Source: Acidobacterium sp. S8
GTDB lineage: Bacteria; Acidobacteriota; Terriglobia; Terriglobales; Acidobacteriaceae
Length of the DNA: 64,000 bases
Direction of reading: 5' to 3'
Assembly: GCF_009765985.1 (NCBI RefSeq)
Contig: NZ_LMUM01000037.1
Span: forward strand, 194,113-258,112
Below the pieces are notes generated by a model, which worked only from the letters and a program-made list of their open reading frames with translations, did not search any database and had not been told where the DNA came from. The position numbers and the translations under genes were made by a program. Shown here in pieces: positions 59,934 to 62,479 of the stretch. How positions within the stretch are numbered: the stretch's first letter is position 1; each line of letters opens with the position of its first letter.

Positions 59934-60506
59934 ATGGTGAAAGTGGCAGAAAAGAACGCAGCCGCCAAATCCTCGCATGAACTCGCCGGAGACCGCCTGA
60001 TGGAACTGGCGCAGCAAAAAGTGCCCATACCCGACCAGAAGCTTCTTCCCGAGAAAACATCTCCTCAGGACGAGAAGAAGTCCCGCGCTGGATTGCTGCA
60101 TGCCCTGGGCCGGCTTAAGCCTATGCTCCCGGTACTGGCCTCCGGGCTGCGCATGGTCGATCATGGCGCTGTGCAAGCGGTCGCCCAGCTGTTGAACTTC
60201 GTTGACGGTGGTGCCGGCGGGCAATCGGCCGCAAAAGAAGAGCTGCACCAAGGATTGGCCGAGATCGACGCCGGCCACCGTGAACTGCGGCTCCGGGTGC
60301 AGGACCAGACCGTGGAAATGAAGCGCATTGAGGAGCAAATCACGCTTCTTCGCCAAACATCCGAGCGCAACGCAATCGAACATGCCGAGCTGGTAAATGA
60401 AGTTAAGTCATTGAATTCGCTCGTTCGAACGATCGGCGCCGGGTTGGCAATTCTGCTGATTGTGCTTATTTCGCTGGTAGGACTGCTGCTGTCGCGGCAT
60501 TCCTAA
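59934..60506 (+). CDS. Tail-anchored coiled-coil protein of unknown function
   Basis: 190 residues. Basic, flexible N-terminus with KTSPQDEKKSRAG, a helical middle (LLHALGRLKPMLPVLASGLRMVDHGAVQAVAQLL), a coiled coil (HRELRLRVQDQTVEMKRIEEQITLLRQTSERN, about 115-147) and one C-terminal membrane segment LAILLIVLISLVGLLLS. No known domain. Topology suggests a cytoplasmic coiled coil tethered to the inner membrane by its tail. It lies 37 nt after def, so may be in the kdsD-def transcript. Confidence 0.78.
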   Translation: MVKVAEKNAAAKSSHELAGDRLMELAQQKVPIPDQKLLPEKTSPQDEKKSRAGLLHALGRLKPMLPVLASGLRMVDHGAVQAVAQLLNFVDGGAGGQSAAKEELHQGLAEIDAGHRELRLRVQDQTVEMKRIEEQITLLRQTSERNAIEHAELVNEVKSLNSLVRTIGAGLAILLIVLISLVGLLLSRHS

Positions 60507-60879
60507 TAGATTCGATAATCAATTTCGACCGTCATCTGATGCGAAATCGCTTTGCCCTTGATTTGGGGGCTCAAAGCAATAGTTCTGCATAGCCTTAAGT
60601 GCATTTTCATCAAGGGAACAAAGCCAAGTCAAAATCATCCTATTTCATATAAGCAAAATAAATTCTCATATTGCGAATTGAAATTTATCCTCGTTTTGCT
60701 AACTTTTCTTCACGGTTGCAGGAAAAATTTGCCAGTTGTTAGCCGGTAGGACTAGGATACGTTTCAGTTCGGAGTAGTTCGTGGTAAAACGGACGCGCCA
60801 GAACGCAAGATGCAGCTGATTCAAAAAGATGCCGATGTAATACATCATTCCAAATACCAGCGTACGGAGCGAATTCTCT
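60507..60879. other. AT-rich leader ahead of the GvpL/F-family gene
   Basis: 373 bp without a believable gene; a 65-codon frame at 60552-60749 has no ribosome site and poor composition. The central part, about 60590-60740, is strikingly AT-rich compared with the rest of the window. It may hold the promoter of the next gene, but I cannot assign boxes. Confidence 0.5.
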
Positions 60880-61656
60880 ATGGCATGGTATGCCTACTGC
60901 ATTGCCGAGAAACAAGCCTTCCCTGAGTTGCTCCGCCACCGTAAACCCATTCCAATGGAAGCGGTGTCGGGCATAGCCGGAAATCAGGTTTTTCTTTATC
61001 CCGCCAGTGATCTAGCCGTAATCGTCAGCGAACATTCCCCAGTAGAAAACTTAAGCGACCGGGCAGGCGTAGAACACGCTCGCGTAATAGCCGATTGCTT
61101 CAAAAGCTCCACCGTTCTTCCCTTCCGTTTTGGAACAGTTTTTTCCGATGACGAAAGCCTTCGCCGGTCAGTTCGTTCCAACCAGCGACAGTTCCTCACC
61201 AATATTGAACGCCTCCGCGGCAAGGCCGAAATGCATCTGAAAGTCGTACTCGATGACTGCTGCCGCGAACAGCTTCATGCCTATTCCGCCCAGGCAAACA
61301 CTGGGACCGGAAGAGAGTATCTTATGCAGCTTCGAGAAAACGCTACCCGGCAACGGGAGCGCCAGACCAAGGCAAGGGCCGTATCGGTGCAGATGCATCG
61401 GATGTTCGCTCCGCTTGCTGAGGAAGTCAGCTGCCGACGGACGGATTCGGGCAAAATGCTGCTGGATATCGCCCACCTGATCGACCACAAGTGCGTGGAA
61501 CGGTACCAGAACAAATATTCCAGCGCGAGCCAGATCATGAAGGATTGCCAGATGCAGCTCTCCGGGCCGTGGCCGCCCTATCACTTCGTGCATCGGCTTA
61601 CCACCAGGCACGGCAATGCACATCACAACGGCGTGCAGACCGTAGCCCAGGCATAA
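60880..61656 (+). CDS. Orphan GvpL/GvpF-family protein
   Basis: 258 residues. It opens AWYAYCIAEKQ, with a VEHARVIADCFKSSTVLPFRFGTVFSDDESLRRSV block (about 66-100), RLRGKAEMHLKVVLDD (about 110-125), GREYLMQLRE (about 144-153) and closes with LSGPWPPYHFVHRL (about 226-239). That order, above all SGPWPPYxF, is the signature of the gas-vesicle proteins GvpL and GvpF. No structural GvpA or any other gvp gene is in the window, so a gas vesicle is not implied. Possibly a repurposed encapsulation or sensor component. The upstream AT-rich stretch hints at separate acquisition; a terminator follows. Confidence 0.88.
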   Translation: MAWYAYCIAEKQAFPELLRHRKPIPMEAVSGIAGNQVFLYPASDLAVIVSEHSPVENLSDRAGVEHARVIADCFKSSTVLPFRFGTVFSDDESLRRSVRSNQRQFLTNIERLRGKAEMHLKVVLDDCCREQLHAYSAQANTGTGREYLMQLRENATRQRERQTKARAVSVQMHRMFAPLAEEVSCRRTDSGKMLLDIAHLIDHKCVERYQNKYSSASQIMKDCQMQLSGPWPPYHFVHRLTTRHGNAHHNGVQTVAQA

Positions 61657-61671
61657 GTTTCCAGAATTGTT

Positions 61672-61707
61672 AAAGCCCCGGCGGACCCACGAACCGCCGA
61701 GGCTTTT
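61672..61707 (+). terminator. Intrinsic terminator after the GvpL/F-family gene
   Basis: Arms AAAGCCCCGGCGG (61672-61684) and CCGCCGAGGCTTT (61694-61706) pair with one mismatch around a 9-nt loop and end in TTTT. It lies 15 nt after the stop codon. Confidence 0.85.
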
Positions 61708-61828
61708 CTCTTCTGGAGCAAGAGGTTGTGCGGACTCGTCTTGGCAGAAGATCTGCCCAGCCTCTTAGATAGAAAGACGCGTGAATTTCGGAATCGTTTA
61801 CACAGGGAGCTGAAAGGTCGGCCGATTT

Positions 61829-62479
61829 CTAGGCTGGAATATTTTTTTTCTTCCGGCTCAGCACGAAATCGTTATCCTGCTTGCGACGGCTGGCGGTAGC
61901 GCGGTCGATCTTGCGCCAGAATGCCCAGAAATAATCCACAGCGGAGATGGTGGAAACAAGCGCCATAAAGTAGACCGCCGTCACTGCGACCGAGCGTACC
62001 GGCATGATGAACCAGCCGAAATACCAGGCATCCCAACGATGCGCCAGAATGACAGCTACCACGGAAACAATCTGAATTACCGTCTTTAACTTGCCAACAT
62101 CGCTGGCTTCAATGGTAAATCCCTCAGTACTGGCAATACTGCGCAGCCCCGTGACCAGAAACTCCCGGCCAATGACCAGAACCGCGATCCATGGCTTCAC
62201 GATATCGGGGGAGTACTGCAGAAGGCAGATAAATGCTGCTGTAATCAACAGCTTATCGGCAAGAGGATCGAGCAGCATGCCGATGGTCGTGATCTGGCCG
62301 CGGCGCCTCGCCAGATAGCCGTCCACTCCATCGGAAATGGAAACAAGGATAAAGAAAATAGACGTGAATAATTCCTGTTCGCCGTTTGGCCCGTGGAGCG
62401 GGAAATGCGGCGACAGCATCCAGATCAGCAGCGGCACGCTGAAGATTCGGCCCATCGTAATGGAGTTGGGAAGATTCAC
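61829..62479 (-). CDS. pgsA: CDP-diacylglycerol-glycerol-3-phosphate 3-phosphatidyltransferase
   Basis: 216 residues read from GTG 62479 (VNLPNSITMGRI, the family start); a longer frame to 62497 adds six residues. The CDP-alcohol phosphotransferase motif is complete: DGVDGYLARRRGQITTIGMLLDPLADKLL (D-G-x2-A-R-x8-G-x3-D-x3-D, about 55-83). Several hydrophobic helices cross the inner membrane. Makes phosphatidylglycerol phosphate for anionic phospholipids. The C-terminus RKQDNDFVLSRKKKNIPA is basic and unusual. Monocistronic, between the GvpL/F gene and the PadR region. Confidence 0.95.
   Translation of the reverse strand: MNLPNSITMGRIFSVPLLIWMLSPHFPLHGPNGEQELFTSIFFILVSISDGVDGYLARRRGQITTIGMLLDPLADKLLITAAFICLLQYSPDIVKPWIAVLVIGREFLVTGLRSIASTEGFTIEASDVGKLKTVIQIVSVVAVILAHRWDAWYFGWFIMPVRSVAVTAVYFMALVSTISAVDYFWAFWRKIDRATASRRKQDNDFVLSRKKKNIPA

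Follow-up and report, generated by a model that had tools for sequence, protein, structure and literature searches.

The window, a 64,000-nucleotide stretch of one contig of Acidobacterium sp. S8, carries a single gene of the GvpL/GvpF superfamily (hereafter the orphan) in a genome where searches for GvpA, GvpK and GvpN gave no match. The orphan is under purifying selection, was detected in almost all sampled genomes of the Acidobacteriaceae, a common soil family, and probably has a job other than gas vesicles. Our best reading, to which we give roughly even odds, is a long-separated GvpL/F member that acts independently of vesicles as a chaperone or adaptor for a client other than GvpA and is expressed from its own promoter. 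With respect to the open-licence literature, and as far as we are aware, four findings are new: how many genomes of the family carry the gene, its independence from GvpA, a lineage of its own with marker residues, and a promoter block that belongs to one gene. No description of a lone GvpL/F in Acidobacteria was found in open-licence PMC titles and abstract openings, and the text of PMC7074687 contains no gas-vesicle terms.

The orphan gene and its genome

The Pfam profile GvpL_GvpF (PF06386) matched the predicted protein with all of its 245 positions (1-245; E 5e-56; 190.9 bits against a cut-off of 23.6). By this match, which lies far above chance, the ORF is classed as a full-length member of the superfamily, and the complete domain reported in the initial annotation is confirmed. 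DUF3456 was also listed by Pfam (E 0.051), under its cut-off, and the same scan found no DNA-binding domain. The gene and its immediate signals are:

60880-61656, plus strand: CDS of the orphan, 258 aa; residues 237-258 form a short C-terminal tail that contains His (ORF, Pfam, model)
60866-60869, plus strand: conserved putative GGAG ribosome-binding site, 10 nt 5' of the ATG (upstream alignment)
61672-61712, plus strand: terminator-like hairpin with a T-rich tail, lying between the gene end and a convergent pgsA-like gene (shuffle test)

The hairpin proper (61672-61706) and the T-rich tail that follows it gave a z of -5.4 against shuffles of region 61657-61720, in line with the earlier proposal that the gene has a terminator of its own. 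The hairpin was missing from the consensus terminator scan because its loop measures 9 nt and the scan takes loops of 3-8 nt. The convergent 3' neighbour encodes a CDP-alcohol phosphatidyltransferase.

The whole assembly (5,437,681 bases in 38 contigs, 99.99% complete) was searched for four gvp families, GvpL/F, GvpA, GvpK and GvpN. The orphan was the only PF06386 match. Neither GvpA (PF00741) nor GvpK (PF05121) gave a match at E ≤ 1 anywhere in the genome, nor did GvpN (TIGR02640) at E ≤ 1e-10. The initial annotation had described an orphan from the window and had suggested a genome-wide check for gvpA, gvpN and gvpK; that check leaves the description standing.

Several other candidates were rejected. 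A search for RNA leaders (60450-61900) returned up to E 1 only His_leader, with 21.4 bits against a gathering threshold of 49; this match at 61620-61712 overlaps the gene end and the terminator and was read as chance. Two Cas1 models of PADLOC (E 0.02 over 40 residues), which would point to an anti-phage system, were likewise taken as chance. As to a viral or phage origin, there were no confirmed relatives in viral contigs, no matches to phage records and no hit of the promoter pattern in an exact scan of the viral contigs.

Distribution and lineage of the orphans

A profile was built from 17 orphans, 14 of the Acidobacteriaceae and 3 of a second family, f7. At E ≤ 6e-41 it matched 191 of 200 sampled Acidobacteriaceae genomes, the weakest of these matches coming from two fragmented genomes (G214 and G266). 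The orphan was present in 146 of the 151 genomes negative for GvpA and in 45 of the 49 positive ones (Fisher p 0.23), and we therefore regard it as independent of gas vesicles. A weak match was obtained in G321, G200, G256 and G359, all GvpA-positive, and none in G204, G233, G273, G283 and G312. G321, which is 59% complete, is the sole GvpA carrier of the window's own genus, and its want of a strong orphan match counts against our best reading. In total, a GvpL/F of any kind was found in 196 of the 200 family genomes and in 144 of the 146 good ones.

These numbers bear on the idea that the orphan is an auxiliary part of true gas vesicles, acting in trans and kept as clusters come and go. Its presence in 45 of the 49 GvpA-positive genomes fits such a role, but the 146 GvpA-negative carriers largely refute a backup or auxiliary function, and the orphans also form a lineage apart from the cluster copies (see below); we hold this explanation to be very improbable. 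The initial annotation stated that gas vesicles are not known from this type of host. This does not hold: GvpA was matched in 49 of the 200 family genomes, 42 of them with at least three copies, and PMC2963123 had already reported gas-vesicle genes from an acidobacterium. Given the 49 GvpA-positive genomes, gas vesicles may be commoner than expected in these soil bacteria.

Among 200 sampled genomes of the class, GvpL/F matched in 63, of which 41 were Acidobacteriaceae, and GvpA in 17, two of them Acidobacteriaceae; no Acidobacteriaceae genome without GvpL/F was among the rows listed. Outside the family, lone copies with 26-35% identity were present in six genomes of f7, and one genome of a third family, f2, carried a lone copy plus a gvp cluster elsewhere. 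The phylum sample (297 genomes) contained 16 matching genomes outside the class. Fourteen of these had three or four copies; of the other two, G629, which is 65% complete, had a single copy, and G417 a single weak match that contains stops. The 80 best relatives all belonged to the Acidobacteriota, including Acidipila rosea (Acidobacteriaceae, Terriglobia).

The maximum-likelihood tree comprised 61 rows, with the duplicate row L002 left out. The unrooted branch between 27 orphans (20 Acidobacteriaceae, 6 f7 and 1 f2) and 34 other sequences had a support of 100/100. The latter were 21 acidobacterial cluster copies, two second lone copies and 11 external copies from Halobacterium, Nostoc, Streptomyces, Methylocella and Spartinivicinus. 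This phylogeny, proposed in the initial annotation as a check, supports the orphans as a lineage apart from the sampled cluster GvpF/L copies. Within it the f7 and f2 orphans fell inside those of the Acidobacteriaceae, for which long branches are perhaps the cause. Two genomes without a GvpA match, G143 and G147, carried a second lone GvpL/F copy (L060 on G143:C14 and L061 on G147:C7) that was shorter and very divergent; in the tree both grouped, on long branches, with a cluster copy of G037.

The two cluster-bearing genomes of the family that were fetched, G047 and G078, had the gvp cluster and the orphan on separate contigs. Three GvpA-family and three GvpL/F genes lay inside about 9 kb in both clusters (G047:C61 and L062 on G078:C11). 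The cluster GvpF/L of G078 belong to the same superfamily as the window orphan, with 22-28% identity, and sit beside GvpA-family genes, whereas the orphan of that same genome branches apart from them.

Selection on the gene was evident. Of 13 comparisons with the window gene, 12 gave an omega of 0.06 to 0.15, most of them with dS above 1, and one was saturated; of 8 close orphan pairs, 7 gave 0.03 to 0.14 and one was identical. That a gvp cluster was lost and the lone gene is its decaying remnant, as the absence of its searched-for partners GvpA, GvpK and GvpN might suggest, is refuted by omega well below 1 as far as sequence can do so, and with the gene in 191 of 200 genomes and its upstream block and ribosome-binding site conserved the chance of it is close to nil.

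The orphan missed the cut-offs of the NCBI equivalog models for GvpL (NF045778, 50.2 of 200 bits) and cyanobacterial GvpF (NF052351, 28.4 of 350 bits). The models are narrow: GvpF of Halobacterium misses both as well (60.2 bits for NF052351), so that these misses show merely that the orphan is no close ortholog.

The conserved upstream block

Upstream of the gene three elements were recognized:

60729-60760, plus strand: promoter-like block TTGCCAG-N17-TAGGATAC with -35-like TTGCCA and -10-like TAGGAT, 119 nt 5' of the ATG (upstream alignments)
60698-60703, plus strand: GCTAAC element, 31 nt 5' of the start of TTGCCAG (upstream alignment)
60643-60686, plus strand: alternating T and A tracts in roughly 10-bp phase, 5' of the block (column profile)

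In its relaxed form, TTGCCA(A/G)-N17-TANNNT, the block was present in 77 of 81 upstream regions (the window and 80 loci), among which L085 contains N and L137 and L130 offer only 2 and 145 nt of upstream sequence, respectively. In the nearest relatives the sequence some 120 nt ahead of the start codon was TTGCCAG-N17-TAG(G/C)ATAC; other relatives had TAGTATTC or TACTATTC in its place. The gap measured 17 nt in all 65 sites that scored at least 13 of 15. A further 18 of 26 family loci had the block, some of which may repeat genomes among the 81 (G103 and L134 share the same match region), and it was present in none of seven f7 and f2 loci.

The information content of the block was about 49 bits over 42 columns, a figure inflated by the shared ancestry of the 72 distinct sites, which come from related genomes. 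We judge it to exceed what a -35 and a -10 element alone would give. A position weight matrix run over 3.5 million positions of the loci returned 16 further hits above 12 bits, all upstream of orphans. In the genome of the window, the fuller pattern had one exact site and none with a single mismatch; sites with two mismatches numbered three, as many as for the reversed control. A wider regulon in this genome was rejected, since beyond the one exact site there were no more matches than in the control. The block may be a sigma-70-type promoter with an overlapping operator that serves one gene, and the A/T tracts an UP-like element or curved DNA. Exact GCTAAC was found at offset -31 or -32 in 15 of 77 regions. 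In a few relatives, most clearly in L081, a near-perfect inverted repeat is located in the tract and GCTAAC region (60643-60703 in the window).

Residues, predicted fold and possible function

The C-terminal part of the orphans carries marker residues. C185, D196 and H199 occurred in all 20 orphans of the Acidobacteriaceae, in 5, 5 and 6 of the 7 from f7 and f2, respectively, and in none of the 34 other copies, where position 196 was N in 23 and position 199 F in 12 and C in 11. Y209 was invariant in the 20 family orphans and likewise absent from the 34, 28 of which have F. H235 was present in all 20 and all 7, and in only two of the others (N in 16, S in 8). All five residues were invariant in the window protein and 78 close orphans. 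LSGPWPPYHF, which the initial annotation took for a family signature, lies at residues 227-236 and is indeed present, but its H is a trait of the orphans, with N or S in 24 of 34 other copies. P81, G114, E117, L200, G229, P230 and F236 are common to most of the other copies and would keep the family fold.

GvpF-type proteins possess a C-terminal ferredoxin-like domain. For the overall fold and the C-terminal half we used an AlphaFold2 model built from 79 sequences (mean pLDDT 64.3; 42.2 for an earlier model), which was best at residues 111-130 and 151-230, in a ferredoxin-like arrangement. Its top fold matches were the solved GvpF structures of Microcystis aeruginosa (4QSG, E 2e-8, Z 11.7) and Anabaena (6L5D, E 9.3e-8, Z 11.3), and in this comparison with GvpF, which the initial annotation had suggested, the match over the full length was loose (4QSG, TM 0.48, rmsd 8.8; also rmsd 7.1 over 208 residues). 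The C-terminal match to 6L5D comprised 151 residues spanning 86-242 (Z 11.3, rmsd 6.2), and the model thus predicts a GvpF-type C-terminal ferredoxin-like domain; residues 1-88, where a GvpF-type N-terminal domain might lie, are mostly below pLDDT 50. The orphan profile found in the PDB the same two sequences and no others (2.4e-9 and 5e-7, respectively), whereas phmmer with the window protein alone found no GvpF there (best 5xv5, E 0.58).

GvpF binds the shell protein GvpA and is proposed to be its chaperone (PMC11445434), and GvpL is proposed as a platform for accessory Gvp proteins (PMC7688916). The orphan falls into the same Pfam family as the GvpFs of M. aeruginosa, Anabaena and Halobacterium, yet its genome gave no match to GvpA, GvpK or GvpN, and it has D196 for mostly N, H199 for F or C, Y209 for F, H235 for N or S, and additionally C185. 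Halobacterium GvpL is of the same superfamily and its model gave the better of the two NCBIfam matches; the orphan nevertheless stays under that cut-off, has no gvp cluster around it and belongs to the separate lineage.

Since the family fold appears to be kept and GvpA is absent, the simplest reading is a protein that binds or chaperones a different client. The orphan would be a soluble, cytoplasmic protein that retains the GvpF architecture and puts it to the use proposed for GvpF, that of an adaptor of the binding or chaperone type, a role carried over from GvpF by homology. Its client would be something other than GvpA, and the exchange of partner would show in the residues that differ around the C-terminal domain and the GPWPPYHF motif. 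In the window the gene would be transcribed alone, from a promoter used by no other gene of the genome. The repurposed role suggested by the initial annotation is supported by the lack of GvpA, GvpK and GvpN matches, by a presence not tied to GvpA and by the separate lineage; its argument from the single copy is weak, and conservation, phylogeny and the upstream block serve better.

A Pfam match alone would label the orphan a gas-vesicle protein. Yet GvpA went unmatched in 146 of the 191 carriers sampled, and annotation by family would imply buoyancy in bacteria that probably lack it. If the function were solved, it would reveal what the GvpF fold is capable of when GvpA is not involved, and hence its general activity. 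The conserved one-gene promoter block offers a direct handle on the condition and the regulator.

The orphan-specific Cys, His and Asp residues could instead form a binding site. The main rival to the chaperone or adaptor, which we consider most likely, is accordingly a regulator of the ligand-, metal- or redox-binding kind. In this reading the GvpF fold would have turned into a sensor that binds through the C-terminal domain and C185, D196, H199 and H235, perhaps also the tail, with the one-gene block as a feedback operator. It draws on the specificity of these residues, on the single occurrence of the fuller promoter pattern in the genome and on the tails after the motif, which are rich in His (9.1% vs 3.5% in the body), with at least three His in 44 of 80. 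The His-containing tail is, however, missing from part of the family (e.g. L032 and L036-L038), and the Pfam scan found no DNA-binding domain. The C-terminal domain also resembles ACT, PII and CutA folds; among the many ferredoxin-like rows returned by VIA-align, a Z of about 8 is a common level for this tool, and kinship with these proteins was not inferred. We regard such a regulator as a tentative option. Its boldest form, in which the GvpF fold of the Acidobacteriaceae would be a near-universal stand-alone cytoplasmic sensor that originated in gas-vesicle assembly, with its own Cys/Asp/His site and feedback on a one-gene operator, seems rather unlikely.

A protein shell might still be served if a strongly diverged, unseen GvpA-like protein were assembled with the help of the orphan. 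In favour of this, Y4, Y6, G31, H66, P81, G114, E117, G229, P230 and F236, common with the cluster copies, are kept. The same PF00741 search that gave at least three copies in 42 of 49 GvpA-positive genomes nonetheless gave no match at E ≤ 1 in the orphan's own genome, where matches to GvpK and GvpN are absent as well, and we consider such a shell quite unlikely.

For the chaperone or adaptor, the surroundings of the gene were compared in search of an operon partner, a candidate that was rejected as the neighbours differ between genera. The gene at 59934-60506 (plus strand), present in 50 of 81 loci, encodes a small protein that has no Pfam match and carries a hydrophobic segment at its C-terminal end. 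In 37 of 77 loci it is the next gene upstream of the orphan in the same orientation, which makes its product a conceivable partner. The recurrence of this gene in the region, like that of the pgsA-like gene, may be plain synteny.
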